A stretch of 64,000 nt of DNA, taken from contig MZZL01000389.1 in assembly GCA_002749535.1 (NCBI GenBank), positions 322,461-386,460 of the forward strand, in the 5' to 3' direction. Of the stretch, positions 28,820 through 64,000 are shown one piece after another. How positions within the stretch are numbered: position 1 is the first letter of the stretch; each line of letters starts with the position of its first letter. The notes under the pieces are model-generated. The model was not told where the DNA came from. It searched no databases and was given only the letters and a program-made list of their open reading frames with translations. A program made the position numbers and the translations under genes. The DNA is from Apophysomyces variabilis (Eukaryota; Mucoromycota; Mucoromycetes; Mucorales; Mucoraceae).

Positions 28820-31800
28820 CTATAACCTCTCTGCCAACAATTCCTCGATACATTGATTGATGAAGTCGCGTTTGACCTCCATATCCACGCCAAAATGATG
28901 CGATAGAGCGTCACGGACCTGCTTTTTAGTGAGTTGCATTAGATCATGCTCGTCAAGTATCTGCTCGATGGCCTGAATCATTTCTGTGTCAGTCGGGAAA
29001 TAAGCCATCAGTTCTTCTGAAGGACAACTGCATGTCATTTGGTCATCATATATCCGGGGATCTTCGTCCTCAGAGCAAGACATGTCTTTTTTCTCCCATT
29101 CTCGCTCGTGTTCCGACCAGCGTTTTGTGGGCACCGTAGAGGGATCAAATGTGCCCTCTTCCGGACCAACTGCCTTGCGCTGACCCTTCTCACCCACCAC
29201 AATACGGGTATTTCCCCAAGAAAAGTCATCGAAATGCCAAAAGGCATAAATAGGAATCAAAAACGAAAATACCGGGATGGCTAGGACATATACTATCATC
29301 CAACCTACGTGCTCCCACTAAAAAGAGATGCGAATAAATTAGAAACTTCTCAACAATAAGCCAACGGTGATTGTTTAACCCACCTTACGCCGAAGAATGA
29401 AAATAACGGCCTGCAAACCATAGACACCAGCAAGGGTGATAATGGACATCATAGGAACCTGACTCGTGTTTGTGCAAAGTTGATAAATCAGATAACCAAG
29501 GTAACAAACGACAGCTGGCATTACTAAGGTGCTAAGTAAATCAAGCATCACAACGAATCGCATGGAAAAACAGCAGAAACCGCAAAGCTCCGGCAAGAAC
29601 ATCAATTCACCGAGATTATGGACGGTTGAATTGATCCATCGTCGCCTCTGTGACAGTAGCACTGGCCATCGATCTGGTGCATTCGTCATGCAAGCTGCGT
29701 CCGGCGTGAATTTCGTCTTGTAGTTCGGGAAATGTTTGAGGATCAAAGTTGTCAAATAGCGATCCTCACCGAGATGGAGGAGATTTTTCTTATGCAGCGT
29801 ATCAACGCTATTTTCTGCATAATCTTCAATAACTTGGTTAGATGCCAACAAGGGCTGATTGCGTACAGTGGACCGGATGCGATACATGCAAAAGCAACCA
29901 GGAAGACATGTTACACTGCCGAAGAGCGATTCAAATGCCTTGGCAAGATGATGTGAAATATAGTATTCATACACTTGGATCATGGTTACCCATGTATCCT
30001 TCTCGTTCGACAACATGGTTTCGCCACAGAGACCGACAATCTTTGGGTCATGGACAAAACAGGATACCATACGGTTCAATGAATCGGGCAAGACTTCTGT
30101 ATCAGCGTCCACCATCAGCACGAATTCGTAAAAACTAGGATTCACACCAATCACGTTCTTGAGCTGGTGATGCATCTCGAGTTCCAGTGGTGTCATTGGT
30201 GCATCAAAGTGAACTTTGTTCAGGAATCGCATCAAGACCATTTGTGAATCCCGTTTACCACGGTTGCCGGGCTTCTGGCGCTCTTGAGGTGTGCCCACTT
30301 TCACGACAACAATATAAGGTACCACATGGCCAGCACATTCGTATAGGCCAGAATAAACCTTACCCATATTATGCTGCTTTCTACCCTCACCAAGCGAGAG
30401 GAAAGACATGGGTTCAGGGTCGACGTTCGGATCAGCCCCAAGAATATCCAATACAATACGAGGGGTTGAGCGATCATTGCCACTACCGACAATCATTCCG
30501 TCCGCCACAAGGAAGAGTAGTTTACGTTTATCGTCGTACCGCATGATGGTCAATGAATCGATGGTCTTTCGCAAGGATTCTTCGCCTTCTGTGTAGCAAG
30601 GGACCTGACAGATGATGAATTTGTCGTATTCTTCGATGGGGTGTTTGATATTGGGTCTTAGCGCTGCAAGGAATTTGAACAAGATGACACTGCATAAAAA
30701 CCCTGTGATGAGCAGCAAAAGATATTCTGACAAAAGACATTGGAACGAGTTACGTGTGTCTACTTTGCCAACAAAGAATAAATTACGCATGCATGTCAAC
30801 TGCCGATCACGCATGGCACGGTCCATAGGAAGCGCATCAAAATGCGTTGTAATGTCTGTGCCTGCTAGCTGACGAAACAGCTCGGTGATGGAGTTGTCAA
30901 TGAAATCGGTACTAATATGCACTGGCTGTTGCTGCTTTGCGGCGAGACCTCCGTTCACAGCATTGGCAGATCCAGGACTGATGGTGGTCGAATTGGCATC
31001 AGTCGTATTGTTGCTGCTCGTTGACAAGATGGGTTCTGGCCGACCACCCAACATATAAGACGTGAGATCATACACATCATCATGGACAATGGCCCATAGC
31101 CGTTTCGTATTAATACCGCCCAGTTGGACTGGATACGACGCTTGGTTTTTGACATCCACAGGGTCATAGCCCATGAAACCGAGTCGGTAATTCTTCCGCA
31201 AGTAAACCATTTGTTCAAAATACCAATCTGGTCTATAATCGTCTTTCCCGTACCGAAAATCGTGATAGAAGGAATTGGAGTCCGTCATATTTATATGCGA
31301 ATTCAACATCACCTCCTTAGGAACAGTACCATCAATACCATCGCATAGAGCCGAGACCTGCACAGGAAAAAGACCACTCGCGTCCTGACCAGCATATTGA
31401 AAAAGAGCACCCGTAGGAATCACCTGGGAGGCCCAATGGCGAGGCGCAAAAGACGTAAGATCAAAAACTTCGCCTCGAATGGCAACATAAGCATTGTCTT
31501 TATCGCTTTTGGCCTGAAGTTCGGACTGTGTAAAAAGATCCTGATGCGGACAAACGAGCTGGCCGAAGAAGGCAATAAACCACACCATGACCGCACAGAG
31601 AAGAAAGATCAGGCAACAGAGGGTGACTTTTTCACGCCATGCCATACGGATGTCGACCCGACGCATCCCACCTATCCAATTCATTAAGAAACTCGGGATC
31701 CACCAAGTACATAGCCAGGTGAGAGTCACCCACACTATGCGGGACGTGGATGTCTTTTTCTTTTTTGGCTGTGATCCCGTTCCAGCTGCTGCTGTTGTTG

Positions 31801-34534
31801 TCGCTGTGGGAGTGAGCGGTGTGGATGAGGAAGCAAATTTCGTGCTATCCTGAATTGAGGTAGTTTCCATATGCTGGTGATGAATACAACTGTCTCCATC
31901 GCAAAGGTGGGAGCAAACCGATTCCGTTTCGGTATAACAGTGGACGATATTGTAACAGTCATCAACAGAATACATTGAACCTGTATCTATCATGGACTGA
32001 CCATAGCAAGACAAGGGATGTGAACAGGATGGGGTCATGCCTCTGTTAACGACGGTGCCACTTCCTCCTCCTTCGTCTCCTTCTTGCTCTTCTACAGCAT
32101 TGAAAATGACGTGTTAGACATTTCTTAGGAAAAACTAGCAAACGCTTCGTCCTCGTTCTCTTCTTTACCGAAAGGGATGCCTTTGGCAATACAACGTTGT
32201 CTTCGTTGTTCTCGTTTTTCCATTCCTCGTTGCTTATTTTCTAAGATCATCCATGCTAAAGCATTTAGTCGGACCTATTTGTTTAAACATGTTGATGAGT
32301 AACTTTGAAGAGAAAAAGGTGGAATAGCAAGAATTGGCTTACTCACCTTTTCATCTTCTACAACCATCATCGATACGTCCCATTCATAATGAGCTGAAAG
32401 AGCAAGACTTTTTGCTATCGGTTCTGCGTCCAATTCAACAGCTGTGGTTTGGATCAGATTGGCGTAACGTTCGCAAAACTCAGAGACGCTGTATTGCATA
32501 GTATACTCGTGCTTGGATCGTTGGCAGAGCTGCAGGATCTGGAACATTTTGATCTGGGCCAATATCTTTTTGGCATCACAAGAGCTAGGCAACAACAAGT
32601 CGTTTGGCTTAAGACAGATAACCCACCAACACTTTGTTTGCTCGAGCGTTGCTAGCAGATCGTCAATGGCCTCCACCACTTGATGAACTGCTGGTGGATT
32701 TTCTTTAGCAGCGTTGGACGATGATGGTGCTTGCTTCTTGGCATCTTTGGGTCGCCGCAAGGAAGGAGATCGTCGTGGTTTCGAAGACTGTTGAGCTGCG
32801 ACAATCATGGTGTTCTTAGGGTGGGATTCGGTGGCGATTGTCTTTTGCGCAAAGATCTTTCTGGCCAAATCGTTTGTTTGAATGGATGCATCCTCTTCTT
32901 CTTCCTCACGTCCATCTCGTCGGAACAGCGAAATGAAGTCAGCACTCATTGTATCCGATGTGGTTCCAAAGGAGGCCACATGGTACACAACCGGACCAGT
33001 AAAGTGTTGGATAGTGAAGGGCGATTTTTTCGTATTCAAGCATGGATTCTGTCGGTTGGCGGATAAAAACGTGCTGAGTGCTTCTTGTCGCTTCTCTTCT
33101 TGTTGAAGCATGCGAATGAGGCCATGATTACGGTCCGTTAGAAGTTGGACGCAATTATTAGTGTCATTGTTCGGTTGGGATAATGGCTCATTAGCGGTTG
33201 GGATGGGTCCATGGATCAAGAATTGCTGTAAACGTTCGTTGGCTAGGTGGACGCAAAGTTGTTCGAAAGACTGAACGGCGGCATCGTTGCCGGGAAAATC
33301 GACAATGCCGATAAAGTTATGGAAGCTGGATTTACAAAGCTTTTTGTTCAGTGCTTCGATGATCCAGTCAAACAACAAGGAATAAAGCGTCTGTGAAAGG
33401 TGGTCGCGCTGAACCATGGCCTGCTCAGCATTTAGAAAGATTGTCGTCAAATCGCGCTTGATTAGCTTGGTCTGGTAGGTCAAGACTTGTTCCAAGGCTC
33501 TGGCTTCCACACCGAGTAGTCCAGCCGCTATATCAAGAGTTGCCGTGTTTCGCACAACAGCTGCATCCTGCGTCTGATCGTCCAGGAATTGTAGCTGGTT
33601 TAAGTGCAGAATGGCTGCCAAAATCTGGGTTAGCTGTATCCATTTCGATTTACTGATTCCTAGCGCTTTGAGGTGACTATGAAGTTCGACCCACTTTTCA
33701 TCCTCGTCGACCACCACATGATCTCGCTTAGCCATATCCTGGATACAAAGCGCGGCCTTTTCTTCGGGCGATGTACCATGCAAGAGATAGTATATCACGT
33801 GGAAGGGTCTTTCGTCGGTCATAACCCGGGTGATTCTTGATTTCTCGAGCATGTAGTTTAAGAATTTGGCACCGATCATTCGTCCTCGTTCGTTGAACTG
33901 CAACTCGAGGTATTTCCCAAATCGGGAAGCATTGTCGTTAACAAGGGTTTTGGCGTGCCCAAAAGCTTCGATGATGCTGTATGCTTTCTGGACGAGCTGA
34001 GGTACTTTGGATGATTTTTTATTATTATTATTGTTACTGTTGTTGTTATTATGGCCGCTGCTGAGAGTGACCAGATGATATAGAATCCATTGATGCATCT
34101 CTGACTTGCCACTTCCACTCAAGCCACTGTTTTAATTCGACAAGCGTTGGAAATGAGTTATTTTGGAATGGAAGCAAAGAGGAAGAAAAAGATAAAACAT
34201 GCCTGAGAATCATCGATTGATCTTGACCTGTTCTTCTCATATGGAAATAGGCCTGATTGACATGTTGGAAGATGTGAGGATCGAGGCGGTCGTCAGGACT
34301 CTCTGTGTCCTTATATTCTCCCAGATATTTCTCGCTTGTTGTTTGGATGGTTTCTGGTGAAGTAGCTTTGTAGGAATTTATAACCATCAAGACAGAATGA
34401 TGTAGACGGGTATACATTTGGTCTTGCAAGAACCGTGCTCGCAAGGTCGCCACGATCAAATCCTCCGTCAACGGTTCGATCTCGGTCAGATCATTATGTG
34501 TGATCGTTGGTGGCGGTGCAGGTACCCTCTGCAT
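28820..34534 (-). CDS. Chitin synthase with N-terminal myosin motor (class V/VII)
   Basis: Membrane enzyme polymerising UDP-GlcNAc to chitin, fused to a myosin head that links it to actin during polar growth. Order: start at 34534 (MQRVPAPPPTITHND); motor domain with LTEDLIVATLRARF, P-loop ILSGLSGSGKSEM, switch I NDNASRFGKYLEL and a degenerate switch II (GIVDFPGND); basic linker; membrane segments; cytochrome-b5-like region (AIRGEVFDLTSFAPRHW); chitin synthase 2 domain with FVLMVDADTEVLPDS, GEDRYLTTLILKHF and LLSQRRRWINST; further membrane spans; C-terminal DEK_C domain (MIQAIEQILDEHDLMQL). Exons join across 32038-32275, so head and synthase are one gene. The two largest exons are 29375-32038 and 32275 to about 34126. 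The P-loop has Leu where myosins have Glu (GESGSGKT). One intron (34127-34202) appears to be GC-AG. Length about 1,800 residues, as in the class. Confidence 0.9.
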
Positions 34535-46300: not shown

Positions 46301-49300
46301 ATGGCAAATACTAATAATAACAATAAATGTTCTAAATGTAAACAACTTTTGATACCAGACCGAGGTAACATGGCATAGCTCTACTCTGAACAACAACCAG
46401 GAACAACACCTAGCAAACCGAACGCTAACAGTTACGACCATTAGATGACAGTAGAAAAACATGCTATCCATGCAGGTTGCGCAGCCGTGCTTGGCATTAT
46501 CGTAAACGTCAAAGAAAATCAGATGAAGCACAATCAGATTCCTCAGGCCCTGTTACTCAGCGTCGTCGTCCTGGCCCTGAAGATTCCCATGTCCCCACTA
46601 ATGACGTCGGCAATGCTGATGCTGATCATTTGATCGCTGATGGTCATCTGACGCCTGACAATGATCTTAGAGAAGTTGAACAATACGTGAACAGTGAAAC
46701 ACGACGACGTCGACTTCCCCTGGCATTCCGATCTCGACTAGCAAACTTCATGCCGTTAGATCTTGGTCGAATGACTGTAGAATGTCCTGACTGTCAAGCA
46801 TTGCATTGGCTTGCTGAGCATGATTCCCGTTCTTCGGACGGGGACCCGAGATTTGAAAGCTGCTGCAAGAGAAATGCTGTGAGCCTACATTTACTGCAGG
46901 ACCCTCCAGACTACCTTAAAAGTCTGTATGATGGGACACACCCTCTTTCTTCTCATTTTCTGAAAAACATACGAAGGTTCAATGCAGCCTTTGCGTTTAC
47001 ATCTCTTGGATGTCAAATTGAAACTTCATTGAACGATGGGCGCGGTCCTACAGTTTTCCAGGTTCACGGAGAAGTATATCATCTCCAAGGACAGCTTCTT
47101 CCTGAGGAAGGCTCACCTCCTTCCTTTACTCAATTTTACATATATGACCCTTCATATGCCAGCATTGCTCGCTCTGCACAATACGCCGAGCTTGATAGTC
47201 AAATCATTCGACGTTTGACTGAGATGCTTCATGAGATCAATAACCCTTTTATTCGCGTCTATAAGACAGCGTTCGAAGTTTTACAGGAGCATCATCATAG
47301 GTTTGAAAGAGGGGAGAGTGCTCATGTTACCATCAGCCCTTCAATGAGGATGCAGCTTATCCAAGGTTCAGATCAACGCACGGAAAACCTACCTACAGCT
47401 GATGAAGTTGCTGCGATAGTGCCTGAACAAGTTGCAAATTTCAAAGCGGGATCTCAGAGCACCGGATCTTATAGAGACATCATTGTCAGATATCGAAGCA
47501 CTGATGGCCAACCAAGTTTGACTCAAATAAATCAGACTCACGGTGCATACATGCCATTGCACTCGTGCTGCTTTTCCCCCATGGGGAGTTTGGTTGGACA
47601 TGGGGACTTACACTTAATGCAATTGAAACTGCTGATGGTACTCAGCGTCAGCGTATGCGGCTAGGGCAGCGAGCATATTACCGTTTTCGTCTACACTTGC
47701 GGAGCGGAGAGTTCTCGACAATATTTTATGCTCGACGGCTGTTCCAGCAATTTCTGGTAGATGCATGGGCTATATGCGACCAGACAAAACTTGAGTGGTT
47801 TCGCAAAAATCAAAACAAGATTCGAGTCGATCTTTACAATGGCTTGGCTGATGTACTGGTGCAGGACGACGTAGATGTTTCTGCTGTTGGCCGACGGTTT
47901 GTGTTACCCAGCAGTTATCATGGTGGCCCGAGGTTCATGGCACAGCTGTTTCAGAATTCCATGGCAATCGTGCGCCATTTAGGCAAGCCATCCCTGTTTA
48001 TCACTTTCACAGCAAATCCAAGGTGGAGTGAAATCACTGCAGAATTGTTTCCTGGCCAGTCTGCTGCTGACAGGCCCGATCTAATTGCCAGAGTTTTCAA
48101 CTTAAAGCTGCATGAATTACTACATGATCTGAAGACAAAGAACGTTTTCGGAAAATTCAAAGGCATAGTGCGGACCATTGAGTTTCAGAAACGAGGTCTT
48201 CCGCACGTGCATATTCTACTTTTTGTCGACAACAAATTCAACGATATCGATGATATTGATGAGATCATCAGTGCCGAGCTTCCTGATGCAGATGAGGACC
48301 GTGAGCTGTATGAAATAGTAACATCCTGCATGATCCATGGACCATGTGGGTCAACTGTGAACCCAAAACCTCCATGTATGAAAGAAAATGCTGCGAGGCC
48401 GGGAGGACTTATTTGTTCTAAGAAGTATCCTAAACCTTTCCAATCTGAGACGCGGTTAGGGACAGATGGCTATCCACTGTATCGTCGACGTGATAATGGA
48501 GTGAGACATGCTGTTCGCCATCCGTCTCATTCAGGAGAAACGTTCTACATCGACAATACGTGGGTCGTACCATACAATGCTTATTTGCTCAAGAAGTACA
48601 AGGCACACATTAATGTGGAAGTCTGTGCAACAATTAAGAGTATCAAATACGTTAACAAGTACGTTTATAAGGGACCTGACCGCACTAGCTTGGAAATCAG
48701 GAATGAACATGACGAGATCCAGCGGTACCTGAGTGGTAGGTACATTGGTCCGACAGAAGCAGCATGGAATCTTTTCGAATTCCCTTTCCATGAAGAGTTT
48801 CCACCTGTGCTTCATCTTAGCGTACATCTTCCTGGAGAACAGCCCGTATATTTTGACCAAGATGGCAACCGAGAAGAGATTGCACAAAGGATGGAGAATA
48901 GTCGCACAACGCTTATGAGCTACTTTGACTATTATCGACAAAACCCTGATGCGATCAAGTACCTTTACCATGATTTTCCTGCTCATTTTCGCTGGGATCA
49001 CCGCAGACGAGTTTGGCTTCAGCGAAAACAAGGGTATCAGATTGGCAGAATGTACCATTGCAGCCCTTTTGCTGGCGAAAGGTACTACCTACGGATGCTG
49101 TTGACAGTTGTACCTGGTCCTTCTTCTTTTGAAGATCTGCGCACTACGACAGACGGCCAAGGTAGACGTATAGTACACCCTACCTTTAAGCAGGCATGTG
49201 TTGCTCGAGGTCTTCTACAGAATGATCAAAATTGGATCCTCTGCTTTAATGAAGCTATCCATGTCTGCTCGGGAAACAGCTTGAGACGGCTCTTCATTTT

Positions 49301-51032
49301 AGCACTAATTCATGGAGACATGACAGATCCTGCAAATATGTGGGAGAGATTCAAATGTCAAATTTGTGATGATCTTCGGGAAGAATCCCTACACAGGGAG
49401 TATGAGAGATCCAATCAGAACGATTCAGGCGCTCCATTCTTTGAAGAACTCGAGAATCCTGCAAGCGATTATGGACTTTATCTGATCCAAAGAGAACTCG
49501 AAGATATGGGTTATGATGTAAAGCAGTATGGACTCCCATCCCCTTGCTATAACTGGACATTTCAGTCTTCAGGCAACCAGATGATAGACAACGAACAGCA
49601 ACAGTATGATACCCGCCAGGAAGCCAGTGCTTTTGAAAGCATGTATAACAAACTGAATTTAGATCAAGAAGTTGCCTTTGGAACAGTCGTGTCACAGATA
49701 CAGTCATCGTCTGAATCTGCACAGTTTTTTCTGCAAGGCCCAGCAGGCACAGGAAAGACCTTTCTATACAAGACGTTGTGCAGCTACTTCCGGCGAAACA
49801 ATCAGATAGTAATCTGCGTAGCGTCATCTGGTATTGCGGCCCTTCTACTTCCTGGTGGAAGGACATCTCACTCCCGTTTCAAGATCTCACTGAATGTCGA
49901 AGAAAGCTCGATAACTGGAATCAAAGCTAACTCCCAGCTGGCTGACTTGATTCGTCATGCAGTTCTAATTATATGGGATGAGGTTCCTATGCAGCATCGC
50001 TTTTGCTTTGAGGCCTTTGACAAAACTATGCGAGACATCTGCCAACGCAATAAGCTATTTGGCGGTAAGGCAGTGATTCTCGGAGGAGACTTTGCCCAGA
50101 TATCTCCTGTCGTCCGTGGCAATAGATCTCAAACAGTTGAAGCATCATTGACCAGTTCGTATATTTGGCCTCAACTGCAGAAACTCAACCTTCGCATCAA
50201 TATGCGCATTTGTTCAGCTTCAGATACTGACAAGCAATTTGCAAAATGGGTTGGGACGTTGCCATACGACCCATCTTTATATGGCAACCTTCTTCTTCCG
50301 TCATACATCCGTTGTACTGAATCTGAGCAGGAACTGATTCAAAGCATATATCCGGCGGATGAGCTCATAAATGCCGATCCTTTGGAATTTTTCAAGGGAA
50401 GGGCTATTCTGGCCTCAACCAATGAAAAGGTTGATGCTTTAAATGAAATAATGTTGTCCAGAATTGATGGTCAGCAGATTTCAATTTTGTCCTCGGACTC
50501 TTGCGATGTCAACGAGGAAGAGAGTATTGATGAGATCGCCCAAGAGTCTCTTCGAAGCTTCAACACTCCGGGGCTTCCTCCTGCTCAGCTCAACTTGAAG
50601 GTTGGCGCACCTATCATCTTATTGCGCAATCTTTATCCGCGGGATGGCCTCTGTAATGGAACCCGTATGATTGTCCGAAGGGTTTCACAAAACCTTTTGA
50701 CAGCGTCCATCATAGGACATCAGCACCATGGAAAAGTGGTTTCTATTCCCAAAATAGTTCTTTCTAGCAATGATGAGCTGCCGTTCATGCTCAAAAGGCG
50801 CCAATTTCCAGTAAGGCTTTCTTTCGCCATGACAGTTAACAAGTCCCAGGGCCAATCATTGTCCAGCGTCGGTATTGATCTTCGTGAACCAGTATTTACT
50901 CATGGCCAGCTTTATGTCGCAATGTCCAGAGTTACCAGCAGTTCAGGGCTCATAGTGGTATTACCAGAAGATTCTCGACGTATAACCAAAAACGTTGTAT
51001 ACCCAGAATTACTACTATCCCATGCATCTTAA
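46301..51032 (+). CDS. Helitron RepHel (HUH replicase + PIF1-like helicase), frameshifted
   Basis: Rolling-circle transposase. The likely start at 46301 (MANTNNNNKCSKCKQLL) is separated from the main frame by an intron or indel. The main frame runs about 46460-47600: a Cys/His segment (VECPDCQALHWLAEHD) and the Helitron-like N-terminal domain. A one-base frameshift near 47567 then leads to the long frame 47565-51032. Rep domain: SLFITFTANPRWSEI, the HUH motif RGLPHVHILLF, and the two-tyrosine motif KYVNKYVYKGPD. Helicase: Walker A FLQGPAGTGKTFLYK, Walker B IIWDEVPMQH, and C-terminal motif MTVNKSQGQSLSSVGI. The end is ELLLSHAS. Apart from the frame change near 47567 and the uncertain 5' end, the gene is full length, so the loss of activity may be recent or the shift may be a sequencing error. 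Confidence 0.88.
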
Positions 51033-57867: not shown

Positions 57868-59150
57868 AGCAAAATTCGAAATACACATATTCATTATTCT
57901 TCAACTTTGCTATGGTCCAATGAGCAAGGCCGTATGTGAATTATGGTTTAAGAAAACAGAACCCAAATGGTCAGGTTGAGACCTTGTGCAGTACAATGTT
58001 GGATACGAATTAACTGGTATTGGTAAAGATATATCAAGGCCATTTACTTTCCCTGTATAGCGACGAAGATTCGATCAGAATTGTTGGCAATAAGCACTTG
58101 GACGAATACTTGGCAATATTTAGCAAAATCAAAGATAATACAGTACGATTGCAAAACGCGAAGTTCATTTGTTTCAAATAGTATTTTACTTTGTTACGCT
58201 TTTCTACCTAATTCTATCCTATCTTCGTACTTCCCTGTTGTTCCTCACGGATAAAGATTGTCATCATATTGCAAAACAATCCAGAACGGTAAGACTTATA
58301 TATACCATCCTAAGCAGAAAGGAAAACCGTTCGTTAGTTTCACTGAACAATATTTCCAAATCATTTTTCGCTTCTCCCGCATATCCGAACACTTTTTTTT
58401 CAGAATGTGTTTTTTCCGTCACGTTGAATTCCGTGTTAGCATAGAATTTTTAATTGTTGTTCATCATAAAAAAGTATGTATATCTCTCCCCACAACATAA
58501 CCACACGAAAGTAATCTGCCTAGATAACTCACCTATCCCTTTCTCAAAAGAAAGGAACCCACAAGACCAACCATGAACTTGAATAATCTACAAACATCAA
58601 TACGATGGGTAAGTTTCTTTGTTCATAGGAGATATATAAAAAACAAAGAGGAGGTATTGTAGGATTATGTATTCAGAAATAATAAAGGGTAAGAGCTGCA
58701 TTGTTTCGACACAAACTTTCCGCCTGGGGCGGCAGCGTTCATCATGGATACAAAACAAGAAGAATAAATAATAGGAAGGGAATATTTACCTTGTTTGTGT
58801 TCTCATAGAGAAACAAAAAAAGAAAGATGTCTCGAAATAACGCTTTCGGGAAAGTGAGGCTTAAATAGAGATTTTAAACATAAAAAAATTTTTGCAATTG
58901 GTGTGACTTGGTAAAAAAGCTGGACCTTTGGCAATGGGGTCGAAAAGGGGCGTCTACTGTTTATTGCATAGTAATTTGCGTTAATAGACGAAACAAGTTT
59001 GCGTCGACTGGAAATAATATAGATAAGGGGCTTGTGAGAACATTGCTTTTGTAGGATAACATTTTTTTTACTTACCCAGATGATATGCACAAGAAAAAGT
59101 TGGGCAAGGTGAAAAGACCAGTCGTTAGAAAAAGGTGATTTAAAAAATAT
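57868..59150. other. Intergenic, no gene seen
   Basis: 1.3 kb between Trs65 and the Fanzor locus. AT-rich, with short domainless frames on both strands. One edge of the Fanzor element should lie here, but I could not fix it. Confidence 0.4.
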
Positions 59151-59240
59151 TGAACTTACCGTTCAAGACGTATATATCTGAATCACTGCTACCTAAGGTA
59201 ACAGGAAGCCACATTCGTAGTGGTGATGTCAAAAAATAAA
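59151..59240 (-). ncRNA. Candidate omega-RNA-like structured region downstream of Fanzor
   Basis: Three small hairpins lie in the 90 bases after the Fanzor stop: CCAC/GTGG around 59209-59223, a six-pair stem GTTACC/GGTAGC at 59188-59202 (one wobble pair), and TGAAC/GTTCA at 59151-59165. Known Fanzor and TnpB omega RNAs come from the 3' end of the nuclease gene and adjacent element end. Position fits; identity is inference. Confidence 0.25.
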
Positions 59241-61670
59241 CTACTGCGGTCGACGAAATTCTTCAGGGCGTCCAAGTCCACGCCACACCGAGTCAGCGAT
59301 GTGATACATCGATTTAGCCGAGTTGACATCTCTTTGCCACAGTATATGACAGTTTTTGCATACTGATATACCGTGGTGTGAAACACCGTCGGCTGTAATG
59401 ACCTTGGTCAAGTCTTTTCTCATGCATGCATGACAAACCTGGATATATCGCTCCATAAAGCCGAACATAACATAAGATGCACTAACCATGTGAAGTATTA
59501 AATTCATCTATAGTCACAGCGATCAGGTCACCACGACGCTCTCTTCTTTTAAGTGTCTTCCATAACTTGTTGACCACCGCTGCTCTTTTTCCCTTCCTTG
59601 AAGCGTGCCCTTTTGCTCCGAACATTCCCGCTCCGAACACAATCAATGGTATTTTTCCCGTCGTTCGAAAAGGACATGGATGCCACTTTCGTGTCTGTGG
59701 ATGTGGTTTGTTCACAGTCGATCTCAAAGTAGATTCTCTTGGACTGAAATAAGAAACTTTCGTTAATGTTTACGCTTGTATCCATATGCCACCACTCACC
59801 TGGAACGCCACTGCAACTTCTTTTGTTCTTTGCGCTTATATCTTCGCTTTCTTCTTTTCTTCCGATTACGCCTCGTGTTCGCTCGCCGTCTTTTAGAATA
59901 TTTTTTTACCTCCATTTACAAGTATGTTTACGAGTTCCTCTGGAGCTCGCTGTGTGCCCTGGTAGTTCCTGAACCGTATTTTTGCCATGCAAGGTCCATA
60001 AAACCTTGCTAGCGAGGGAAATTTCTTAAGAAAGCATGCAACGAATTCATGGTGGCGTTGGGATAATGCGGTTTTGCATGTAATCATATTTGTTTCTATT
60101 GTCGTAATACCATGCGTGTCTTTGTCTTTCTGCAATGTTTTTGCTCTCCTTTCTGACCCGGTCATCGCATAATATTCCTTGTTGGAAACCCGTCGTACTT
60201 GATGCGACTTGGAACCACTTCCATCCACAGCAATAAATACTTGGTTATGGCCAGGATCAACGGCCCATGGCTCGAAATATCGGTTCACCTCATCGAGGCT
60301 GAAATCTTCCAATTCAAGTTCGGTATCTAGTGTACCTTCCCTCGCCCTTCTTGCAAAGAGTAAATTGACTGCAAATCCGTCCGTGAGGATTCGACAAGCA
60401 AAGCGATGATTAACATTCTGCGTAAAGTCGTCTAAACTAGGAACATATAATAAAATGATAGCATTTAGCATAGTGGGGTTAAATTCGATAGAATATGTAC
60501 CTGTTAAATCCAAACGGGATAAGTCAAGCACTTGGAAAAACACTGTGCAATACTCGCTTGGTTGCTGTGGTCTCCTTAAGGAGGCTAAACTGACCATCAG
60601 TTCGGCGTTAATGGACACAAATCGCCATGGAGCACTTGGCTTCGGAGAAATAGAAAAGAGTTGAGGTAGTGATGTGTCATCAGACCGGTTTTCCGTCATG
60701 ACCCTTTGATGCTCTTCTTCGTAGTAGGAAAGAATGTACTTTAGTACTGGCAAATAGGAACCGGGGGAAGCAGAAATAGTCTCTTAGGAGGCAGGTTTTG
60801 GTACGAGGGCTTCTAGGTCATCGCATAAACCATCAGTAAGAGCTACCAAAGGCAAAGTTGGCTCTATCCCATCCGGCCATTCAGGAGTACCGCCACCAAT
60901 ACGTTCAAATATGTATTTTGAAGCCATATCCATAGCTTCCTTTTTGCTAAGTGTCTACGAATAATTGATGAGCAAAAGTCTGTTTGTACAGAAATTGTAC
61001 ATACTGGGAACCACGAAGTAAGCCTGTACTGGACAAATGAACAAATCCTTGACTCCAAGTTCTCGACAATATTGTTGCTGTACGATGTCGCAAGTAAAAC
61101 ACAAGCCTCTGTTAACACGTCTGAAGCACGTAGTGTTGTTCTTGGAGGATTAAGCAAAACAGGATGTATGTGAGTGAATGCCTGCCAAGACTTTTCGAGA
61201 TCTATACGCATATTATCGTTCTTTGCCGTTATTGATCGACCAAGTACTAGCTGCATGATCAAATAAAGGAAATTCTGGGTAAAACAAATTGCTGGTATGA
61301 CGTCGTGGTCAATGATATGTTGATTGACGAATAGCTGTGTTTTTGTCACTACCAGTCTCAAGTATCACGACAGCTCTTCAATCTTAGTTCGAGCTTGGTC
61401 GCGATACTCCTCACGAACAACTGCATCAAACGCAATTTTACGAGTGTAAAATTCGGGGTTTTTCCCCAGAGCTGCTTCCAAAAGCTCGTTGGTAGACTGT
61501 TTGTGCGCGGTACAGCTCTTTACTCTCGTGTTTCAGTGTTCAGTTGAACCGCATCCTGGACAAGGACGGGGAGTAGATGGTGTCTTTGCAGCGGTTTGCT
61601 GCTTGCGCTGTCGGCCACGTTCTCGCGAGAAATCGGAGGTAGTACGATGACATTCTTGGTTAATAATAGG
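59241..61670 (-). pseudogene. Fanzor (eukaryotic TnpB-like RNA-guided nuclease), decayed
   Basis: Reads 5' to 3' on the minus strand: zinc-knuckle-like CPGCGSTEH, then ELLEAALGKNPEFYTRKIAF, TKTQLFVNQHIID, ACVLLATSYSNNIVENLESR, and after a 50-bp intron (60955-61004) KKEAMDMASKYIFERIGGGT. RuvC-I is WAVDPGHNQVFIAVDG (Asp codon 60258-60256), followed by VRRVSNKEYYAMTG and FYGPCMAKIRFRNYQGTQRA. RuvC-II is LIAVTIDEFNTS (Glu codon 59505-59503). The zinc finger is CHAC...CKNC, and RuvC-III is HILWQRDVNSAKSM (Asp codon 59330-59328), ending GLGRPEEFRRPQ. All three acidic residues and four Cys are present. Breaks: in-frame TGA at 61533-61535 and 61366-61368, TAA at 60784-60786, and a one-base shift at an A7 run near 59907. 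The splice at the RuvC-II/zinc-finger join is off by one base. The motifs resemble Fanzor1-type proteins of Mucorales. Confidence 0.88.
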
Positions 61671-61721
61671 CTAAAAGATCCGATTTTCCCTCAGTGAATT
61701 ATAGCAAGGCTAACATCATAA

Positions 61722-62696
61722 AGATGGCCAAATTATTGTTCGGGGGCCAATGACCCAGGAAACGTTGATTTATACACTTATGCTTTTTTCACAAACCAAC
61801 AAATTTATGAAAGGCTCGAAAAGGTCTTTCCAGATCTTCCGAAGCACTATTCACAAAAGCAGGTTTCAACTTGGCTGACTGCGGAGCACCTTCATTTCGG
61901 TAGTCAGAAGACCCAACGGATCAACAATTTAGCTCAAAGAGGTCGGTGGTTGTGGCTCTGCACTGCGAAGACGACAGGTAAAAGCACAGCAAAGGTATCA
62001 GCATGAGAGCTAATCTTTAATTCTATTCCCTTGTAGGGGCACTGCAAGAAACGGATGGTTTATTTCCATTCCATTGCAGCAGTGCCATAGGTGACTGGAT
62101 GAACGTAGGATACGTACGCAAATCGCGTACGAGTGAGTCTGAAGAAAATAGGATCCGCCTTTTGCAAGCAATGATGACAAGGCTAGTCAATCGGTGTTTG
62201 TGCACCAGGTTGTTTGCGTCTCCTTGCTCTTCATCAACTGAACGATTGCTAGAGCGAGATTGCCCCAAACCTGACATATTGGCAAAATTGAATGGCTGTG
62301 ATGGTGACACTCAAGGTATGCAGCGAAATATCGTCTCTTCTGCATCTGATCACTTTCACAGACTTGTTTGCCTTCTTATCTACGTGCACAAAAAAAGTTA
62401 GGCTTTGCATAATCGACTATGCAGGCTTATCGAATGACCCTGACGATGTGCAAAATTTTTTGAAGACGATGACCGGACAGAAGAAACGAGGACATCACAC
62501 ATACTAGTTATCGTCTCCTAGATTACATCGCAATATCAAGGAAGTTGCTATTGACCATGGTAACTCGATTGAGCTGCTGAATAGATACTCACTTCTACAC
62601 GGTGATAAGAAAATAACAAAGTTTAAAAGTCGTGTCGGATCAGTGAGGGGTTCAAAAGTTGGATCTCTATTAAAATGCACAGTTAATTGCTGGTGA
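61722..62696 (+). pseudogene. IS607 TnpA-like serine recombinase partner, decayed
   Basis: Exons 61722-61977, 62037-62315 and from 62362. The first carries LEKVFPDLPKHYSQKQVSTW and QRINNLAQRGRWLWLCTA, an HTH-like start. The second has DWMNVGYVRKSRTSESEENR, where Y-x-R-x-S followed by Glu-rich helix and LLQAMMTRL resembles the catalytic start of serine recombinases (YxRxS). The third has VRLCIIDYAGLSNDPDDVQN. HTH then YxRxS is the IS607 TnpA layout. A TAG at 62505-62507 interrupts the frame, which otherwise runs through EVAIDHGNSIELLNRYSLLH and KFKSRVGSVRG to TGA at 62694-62696. No ATG was found in frame at the 5' end. The typical Arg-rich second recombinase motif is not obvious, so the family assignment is tentative. 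Confidence 0.5.
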
Positions 62697-62722
62697 GGCA
62701 TTGTTGGCATGGCATGAAATGC

Positions 62723-62803
62723 TGATCTCTGTTGAAGCGATGCACATCTCTGTTGAAGTGATGCACATCTCTGTTGAATGATGCACATCTGTGTTCAAGT
62801 GCT
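62723..62803. repeat. Short minisatellite, about 20-bp unit
   Basis: Roughly four tandem copies of GATGCACATCTCTGTTGAAG with single-base changes, from a partial first unit (GATCTCTGTTGAAGC) to a diverged last unit. It lies just past the recombinase-like gene. Spacers between units are absent, so this is not a CRISPR array. Confidence 0.75.
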
Positions 62804-63137
62804 GTTAAGGTGAATGAGAAGGAGAGACAGGTCAACTACCAAGTAAACTGTGTGTTGTTGACGAGAGAGGTTTCAACGTGGATATCATATGGAACTATGT
62901 AAGGGCAAGAAAAAAAGAGCCAACAAAGGTCATTCTTACTGGTTGGCACGGTGTATGAGTTCTAATCCTGAATGCAATGTCTTCTGCAGATATCTGTTAC
63001 AGAAGAAAAAAGAGAAAAAAAAAATGCAAACGATGAAGAAAAGATCGAATCACATAGCGGCAGAAAAGCAGACGACCTCCTACAGACTACCAAACGAAAA
63101 GTTAAAGTGAACTCTACTTGTTTACCGCGAACTCTGC
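62804..63137. other. Unassigned junction DNA
   Basis: About 330 bp between the minisatellite and the IS630-like copy. Fragments such as IIWNYVRARKKEPTKVIL near 62880-62940 look transposon-derived, but no family was assigned. A purine-rich, Lys-coding run lies at 63005-63060. Confidence 0.35.
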
Positions 63138-64000
63138 TTACAGATTGTGCTCTTCGTTTTTACAACGTGGAAAGAACGTTACAGCGTGTCGAATCCACGC
63201 TTGGCAATCTGATCTGGTCACTTTGTTTACTGAATTACAGATCCGATCCGTAAGTCTGTCATCAGCTTTCAGTGCATTTCTCTTGATACCTGCTTTTACC
63301 TTTTACCAAAATTCTTCAATGGGATTTAGAAACGGGGAATATGGTGGTAAGTACAGACATTTATAACCTCTGCTCTCAATCAGATTGCGAACAGTTGTTG
63401 GTGTGTGTATTGGAGCATTGTTCATCACGATATAATGGCCTTTCATATCATGTTTATCCAGGACGTCCATTACATTTGATATATAAGACAGAAAGTGTTC
63501 TGTTCGCGTACCGATCCTACCATTGACTGTCTTCGCTTTCTTTTCATGAAGTTTTGTCTTTTTGGACACAGATGCAGCTTGAGGCTTTCTCAAAGATATA
63601 TCTATCACTCCAGCCTCAGATATGGCACCTAATATAGTAATCGTTACTCCCTTTCTAGTTGGTACAGTGCCTTTAGCTGGTGTTCCTCTCAAAGAACGAC
63701 CAAAATTTCTTTGAGTATGCAAGTTGAAACCAGCTTCATCGATAAAGACACAATTCTTAGTGAAATCCACGTCTTGCATCCTTTCCCACTCTTCAACTTT
63801 CTCCTTTCGCAAAGCTACCACTCGGTCAGAATTCCTTGATGCGGGAAGCTTTTCCAACTTTTTCATAGTTACATAGCATCTATTGACTAAATGTCTATGC
63901 AATGCTGATTCTGAGATAGTCAAGTCTTCAAATGCTTCACAAAGTCTTTTCTTTATATCAACCAGGATAGAAGTCGGATTTTTATCAAGGTAATCTACAA
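63138..64000 (-). pseudogene. IS630/Tc1-mariner-type transposase, inactive, partial
   Basis: Runs off the right edge. HTH-like upstream part (SESALHRHLVNRCYVTMKKL), then the first catalytic motif CVFIDEAGFNLHTQRN, the second motif HYIVMNNAPIHTP, and the third LPPYSPFLNPIEEFW. The second motif normally reads DNAxxH; here the catalytic Asp is Asn (codon 63422-63420, AAC), which should abolish cleavage. A TAA follows EFW at 63300-63302, beyond which the frame still reads VKAGIKRNALKADDRLTDRI to about 63138. Two independent lesions mark it as dead. No terminal inverted repeat was identified in the window. Confidence 0.85.

Follow-up and report, generated by a model that had tools for sequence, protein, structure and literature searches.

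A decayed Fanzor1 relic in Apophysomyces variabilis and a candidate omega RNA module in its lineage

Fanzors are eukaryotic cousins of the bacterial RNA-guided DNA cutters. The window analysed here, a stretch of 64,000 nucleotides from Apophysomyces variabilis, carries on its minus strand (61622-59241) a Fanzor1 gene with four short introns in which all three RuvC catalytic positions are present. As a single locus this copy is ordinary, a truncated and dead Fanzor relic; it also points to its host genome, in which about 104 Fanzor loci (fragments counted) occur, the element ends are sharp and a young family has at least one unbroken frame. We consider it likely that the locus is the 5′-truncated, decayed remnant of a Fanzor1-carrying DNA transposon, and that in its lineage a conserved 3′ module and the DNA flanking the element would together provide a guide RNA for the nuclease.

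A Fanzor1 gene on the minus strand and its decay

The initial annotation had described a Fanzor nuclease gene with intact RuvC residues. The motifs that it listed, WAVDPGHNQ (RuvC-I), TIDEFNTS (RuvC-II), a CxxC...CxxC finger, which reads CHAC...CKNC, and WQRDVNSAKS (RuvC-III), are all encoded on the minus strand as claimed (Table 1). Its assignment to Fanzor1 was borne out by a profile built from five relative proteins (alignment A1), which in a search of the PDB matched SpuFz1 of Spizellomyces punctatus (8gkh, E 2.5e-9) and Guillardia theta Fanzor1, GtFz1 (9cer, E 7.3e-8). A significant Fanzor match, the absence of which had been named beforehand as grounds for abandoning the assignment, was thus found at the sequence level. 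The three invariant acids of the profile align with residues 777, 935 and 1000 of the 8gkh chain (counted by hand on the printed alignment), which a constant numbering offset of 394 turns into D383, E541 and D606 of SpuFz1, all of them among the metal ligands named in PMC10432273. Single-sequence PDB searches, with either the window piece or its spliced relative L031, gave no match. The Pfam model PF07282 matches all five members of alignment A1 at E values up to 0.1 (best 1.7e-11); spliced L031 lies just above its cut-off (26.4 against 26.3 bits), and the raw open frame of the window (59507-59241) falls below it (18.5 against 26.3 bits, E 0.0022).

The Fanzor signature given in PMC10711439 consists of a DPG at RuvC-I and a displaced glutamate just before the zinc finger. 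When the window copy is read across the frame break near 59490, it shows DPG and then E-x6-CxxC...CxxC-x6-D, with the glutamate six residues ahead of the first zinc-finger cysteine. The distance of 232 from DPG to this glutamate and the 21 residues between the CxxC pairs both exceed the bacterial TnpB pattern of the same source. The locus is beyond chance, with copies of 85-94% protein identity elsewhere in the same genome. In the protein database, no homolog was found with spliced L031 as query, and a profile search found five relatives, four of which are named Rhizopus and are 32-35% identical to the family-C protein described below; a Fanzor search of viral contigs found none.

The gene structure was resolved using a purpose-written spliced protein-to-genome aligner with L031 as the reference. 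At least five exons and introns of 50-65 bp had been proposed, and the alignment agrees with this, showing five visible exons separated by introns of 50, 64, 56 and 48 nt, all GT..AG. We take these exons and intron sizes to be right because L031 and seven siblings (L002, L003, L004, L006, L011, L014 and L019; L032, also compared, duplicates L014 and leaves the count at seven) have GT..AG at these borders too. The relatives possess at least one further upstream exon with a CCHC zinc knuckle, whereas the window copy has no start codon, no first zinc-knuckle exon and no left end of the element.

The RuvC residues are therefore present as initially annotated, but a working nuclease is unsupported because the copy is truncated at its 5′ end and carries three in-register stops and three single-base frame breaks (Table 1). 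Homology to sibling elements stops abruptly at 61622, and the adjoining stretch 61670-61623 is not recognisable as Fanzor. Further stops and one insertion reported by the aligner upstream of 61622 were left out of the lesion count because family homology ends at this point. The DNA upstream of the break has a second occurrence at C27, which extends as far as the equivalent of 61671 and has no Fanzor after it. That the window copy is functional, its stops and frame breaks being sequencing errors or recoded, is hardly credible: all three frame breaks are indeed single-base and one lies in an A run, but they coincide with three stops and a lost 5′ end, and each of the eight close siblings scanned has stops or frame breaks as well. 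Recoding of in-frame TAG codons in copies of family B was considered separately and rejected, as in one of them (L008) the TAGs vanish on intron removal.

Table 1. Positions of the Fanzor1 relic, its 3′ module and the neighbouring transposase in the window
Feature	Position	Strand	Remarks
Neighbouring transposase relic (DDE_3)	63151..64000	-	cut by contig end; different repeat family
Fanzor exon relic with second zinc knuckle (CPGCGSTEH...C) and REC region	61005..61622	-	truncated at 61622; stops TGA 61535-61533 and TGA 61367-61365
First visible intron, 50 nt, GT..AG	60955..61004	-	borders conserved in siblings
Fanzor exon	60501..60954	-	in-frame TAA 60786-60784; frame break near 60515
Second visible intron, 64 nt	60437..60500	-	spliced alignment
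Fanzor exon with RuvC-I, DPG	59800..60436	-	D codon 60258-60256; frame break near 59907 in A run
Third visible intron, 56 nt	59744..59799	-	spliced alignment
Fanzor exon with RuvC-II, displaced glutamate	59487..59743	-	E codon 59505-59503; frame break near 59490
Fourth visible intron, 48 nt	59439..59486	-	spliced alignment
Last exon: CxxC...CxxC finger, RuvC-III	59241..59438	-	D codon 59330-59328; stop TAG 59243-59241
3′ module hairpin 1, CCAC-TACGAAT-GTGG	59209..59223	-	
3′ module hairpin 2, CTGTTACC-TTA-GGTAGCAG	59186..59204	-	
Conserved 3′ block to element right end; candidate omega RNA scaffold	58955..59185	-	83-88% identical to family B
Intron-like stretch within 3′ block, GTAAGT..TTTCCAG, 68 nt	59008..59075	-	
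Right terminus TATGCAATAAACAG-TA	58955..58970	-	flank (would-be guide) from 58954

The transposase relic upstream of the Fanzor gene contains an in-frame TAA. A search with 61640-64000 returned at least 44 matching pieces, and C27 shares the transposase region together with much of the stretch down to 61671. Since the two genes lie on the same strand, 1.5 kb apart, and Mariner/Fanzor1 elements have been described (Bao and Jurka 2013, PMC3627910), they might be thought to form one composite element of this kind. We rejected this as very unlikely: the full copy L031 has no transposase-like frame by eye (frames of 80 codons or more), further copies of the transposase region stand without a Fanzor at the loci read, and the homology break at 61671-61622 falls between both genes. 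No second transposase-Fanzor junction was found among the 44 matches listed. Elsewhere in the window, a Helitron on the plus strand (46429-51032; Helitron_like_N and PIF1 helicase) has a 1175-codon open frame at 47505-51032, and a shorter frame at 46429-47664 overlaps it in another register, suggesting one frame break near the Helitron start. The minus strand at 29375-34131 contains tandem myosin-head and chitin-synthase open frames, the chitin synthase having a cytochrome b5 domain. One host protein encoded in the window shows 87% identity to a protein of Apophysomyces sp. BC1034 and, as a single protein, places the host near Apophysomyces within Mucorales.

Fanzor families and element ends in the genome

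Searching the assembly (38.7 Mb, 126 contigs) gave at least 138 Fanzor-matching pieces, which a 3-kb merging rule reduces to about 104 loci on 50 contigs; this figure includes fragments, counts a gene split by a long insertion twice and derives from search counts that are lower bounds. All nine close family-A copies scanned, the window copy among them (L001-L006, L011, L014 and L019), have at least one stop or frame break, and three more distant loci that fit family A best (L024-L026) are all broken. All 17 family-B copies scanned have at least one event in the aligner output; in L008 the sole event, a two-base slip beside an intron border, is possibly an artefact of the aligner. Family C is a young Fanzor family with at least one copy without breaks. 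Eight of its pieces share one score in the genome search, and two equally scoring copies are 99.0% identical over 4269 bases while their flanks beyond the common right end differ, as expected of recent insertions. Two full family-C copies were found. One (L035) has a single frame break; the other (L036) is free of stops and frame breaks throughout the 793 residues examined, which begin at the zinc-knuckle exon and finish with the last RP.

The ends of families A and B were compared in 20 copies selected from 40 right-end matches. All 20 right ends finish in AGTA, reading ...ATGCAATAAACAGTA with slight variation, and the bases beyond them differ between copies with the exception of one pair, which has about 280 bp in common. 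In this pair, the family-B copies L027 and L013, the left flanks differ and the common stretch beyond the right end finishes in ...AAACGTAC, as if a copy had moved together with downstream DNA. The left ends are mostly TACAGTTTATTGAATTATATTTTGCG, with some TACTG..., and of 20 left ends examined 19 could be read (L054 having no readable terminus); the window copy retains the right end only. L031 and L032 have a common 5′ limit, AACTGTAGG..., which was dropped as an element end because in two copies of family A, L003 and L019, the left end of family B is present about 280 bp beyond it. Comparison with L033 shows that in eight family-B copies the sequence directly inward of the left end is inverted relative to the terminal 67 bp. 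TA adjoins both ends in the Fanzor-bearing elements, one Fanzor left end (L051) being CA and not TA. With regard to a Tc1/mariner assignment, TA was thus found at both ends, no transposase was seen in L031 and no empty site appeared among the matches listed. In four further loci (L121-L124) a left end like that of the Fanzor elements occurs, but a recognisable Fanzor does not; L122 has a length of about 1.7 kb and the right end AAAACACTGTA, and L121 has, about 1.8 kb from its left end, a transposase frame 40% identical to that of the window, which is a candidate for the content of the element.

The two bases preceding the left TA are strongly biased in Fanzor elements, being TC in 10, CC in 2 and TG in 1 of the 13 examined (YC in 12/13, with the CA end of L051 included). 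At six other elements, whose left ends are a slightly different variant (TACTG/TACCG as against mostly TACAG), these bases are CG, AC, AC, CC, TG and AG (YC in 1/6). Four of these six, read 5 kb further, contain no recognisable Fanzor, their alignment scores of 102-163 comparing with 75-80 in one shuffled control and above 1000 for real Fanzor copies. TC precedes 456 of the 7772 TA dinucleotides in the window, so that 10 of 13 has a P of about 1e-10 if the copies are independent. A conserved CA precedes the inverted repeat of SpuFz1, and the measured TAM is CATA (PMC10432273); following the same logic, we predict TCTA as the TAM of families A and B. TC might instead be part of the left end of these families and not a target sequence, a possible but clearly less probable reading. 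It would account for the near fixation of YC, and for the 13 joined flank pairs no empty site was found among the matches listed, which comprised occupied copies, a dispersed repeat starting in one 3′ flank and a short match at C98. However, the bases do vary among the Fanzor elements and vary freely in the six others, and SpuFz1 has the same layout with a CA that recurs in its TAM.

The 3′ module as a candidate omega RNA

The 231-bp block preceding the right end is 83-88% identical between families A and B, whose proteins are about 60% identical. Upstream of it, hairpin 1 lies around the stop codon and has the loop TACGAAT or one near it in examples of families A, B, C, D, F and G, with stems that include CCAC/GTGG, CCGT/ACGG, CTGT/ACAG and CCGC/GCGG among others; the family-E example has other spacing, and single copies have mismatches or deletions. 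Hairpin 2 occurs at the same place with family-specific stems in seven lineages (p 0.0135 to 0.23, combined 6e-5, by segment shuffles), these p values being post hoc, as the segments were picked after looking. This two-hairpin module around the stop codon in seven Fanzor lineages is a candidate for the start of the omega RNA.

Structural support in the C/D/E/F-type regions is modest. We aligned 18 sequences, namely 14 of 20 fetched regions plus L030, L036, L037 and L038, leaving out L101 and L120 (insertions), L103 and L111 (no recognisable region) and L104 and L105 (without the same end). A four-helix model, laid on the alignment after the alignment had been seen, pairs in 90.4% of cells, compared with a maximum of 44.7% when slid. 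The covariation score is 0.190 against 0.169 in shuffles (14 of 500 shuffles reach 0.190); double changes were found in only 3 of 18 pairs, which 273 of 500 shuffles equal or surpass, and for further pair types the observed number is attained in 499 of 500. The A/B block shows no covariation in its consensus fold (double change in 0 of 31 pairs, covariation term +0.68), and Rfam gave no match on 58900-59400. We discarded the idea that no family translates the conserved sequence following the RP motif: by our reading, the frame of C/D/E-type families continues to the TAG of TTTAG, so that in these families coding may account for part of the conservation of the hairpins.

The 3′ block and the preceding TC could also be signals for transposition only, that is transposase-binding ends and an insertion-site preference, with no guide RNA involved. 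We are doubtful of this, giving it some weight because the block abuts the right end and is retained where the genes are broken, because its A/B version is devoid of covariation and because the left end is common to elements where no Fanzor was found. On the other hand, the start of the module near the stop codon is about 250 nt away from the end, far beyond a short terminal repeat, hairpin 2 recurs with different stems in seven lineages (albeit post hoc), and TC is absent from all six other elements.

Fanzor1 omega RNAs of 75, 90 and 150 nt have been described (PMC11423790), and the 3′ region here would be longer than these unless it is shortened, for example by splicing. In the module the hairpins surrounding the stop codon come first. 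They are followed by a stretch that resembles an intron, has good splice signals and measures 67 nt in L031 (family A), 60 nt in L036 (family C) and 68 nt in the window copy, and the part adjoining the would-be guide comes last. Shuffling of the 3′ regions produces the strict splice-signal pattern in 0.55% of cases for A and 0.75% for C, and its halves are kept in 16/20 and 19/20 A/B copies; it is missing in four of the six examples tested (L033 of family B, and those of D, E and F). On this pattern, a spliceosomal intron might split the omega RNA, such that maturation of the guide RNA would need splicing of the nuclease's own mRNA, an arrangement that we regard as quite unlikely.

The better kept relatives combine short inverted ends beside TA with a spliced gene for a zinc-knuckle and RuvC/zinc-finger nuclease and a structured 3′ module that starts near the stop codon and reaches the right end. 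According to the mechanism that we propose for the lineage, the module and some of the flanking DNA would be transcribed as an omega RNA in which the flank acts as the guide, the nuclease would cut flank-matching DNA preceded by TCTA, which corresponds to the empty insertion site, and such cutting would favour retention or re-copying of the element. This leads to concrete predictions, the target motif TCTA for families A and B and a guide made up of the flank after CAGTA. How Fanzors serve their transposons in eukaryotes could then be tested in strain comparisons of sites with and without an insertion.

Comparison with known Fanzor systems

One of the closest known systems is SpuFz1 (Saito et al. 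2023, PMC10432273), which has in common with the elements here the D/E/D acids in register, inverted ends, a conserved pair of bases ahead of the left end, numerous copies both full and partial, and a conserved 3′ region adjoining the right end. The differences are that the window copy has at least four introns as against a single ORF in SpuFz1, that YC rather than CA precedes the left end and that the 3′ module is longer. In GtFz1 the omega RNA overlaps the last 17 codons (PMC10432273), and by our reading of the frames the module likewise overlaps the last codons of the C/D/E-type families; the GtFz1 locus, as presented in that source, seems to be without inverted ends, unlike the elements here.

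Among Mucorales, PpFz1 of Parasitella parasitica is a studied Fanzor1 with an omega RNA (Xu et al. 2024, PMC11423790), for which a TAM of ATN and a 75-nt RNA are given, whereas the TAM predicted here is TCTA. No chain named for PpFz1 was present among the five PDB matches of our profile, which suggests that PpFz1 may represent a lineage other than that of the window copy. In the open-licence literature we found no report on Fanzor in Apophysomyces or under Mucoromycota, nor on an intron or splicing in a Fanzor omega RNA; Fanzor is mentioned in the context of Rhizopus in PMC11423790 and PMC3627910. Fanzor1 families have been listed for Rhizopus (4), Phycomyces (3) and Mucor (10) by Bao and Jurka (2013, PMC3627910), and the elements here resemble them in being Fanzor1 in Mucorales, with the four Rhizopus proteins noted above as relatives of family C. 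Families described there include MuDR-like ones, whose duplications are 9 bp long, and unclassified ones with duplications of 6 or 11/12 bp, whereas here the ends adjoin TA. Fanzor1 has thus been known in Mucorales since 2013 (PMC3627910), and the present locus adds another member.
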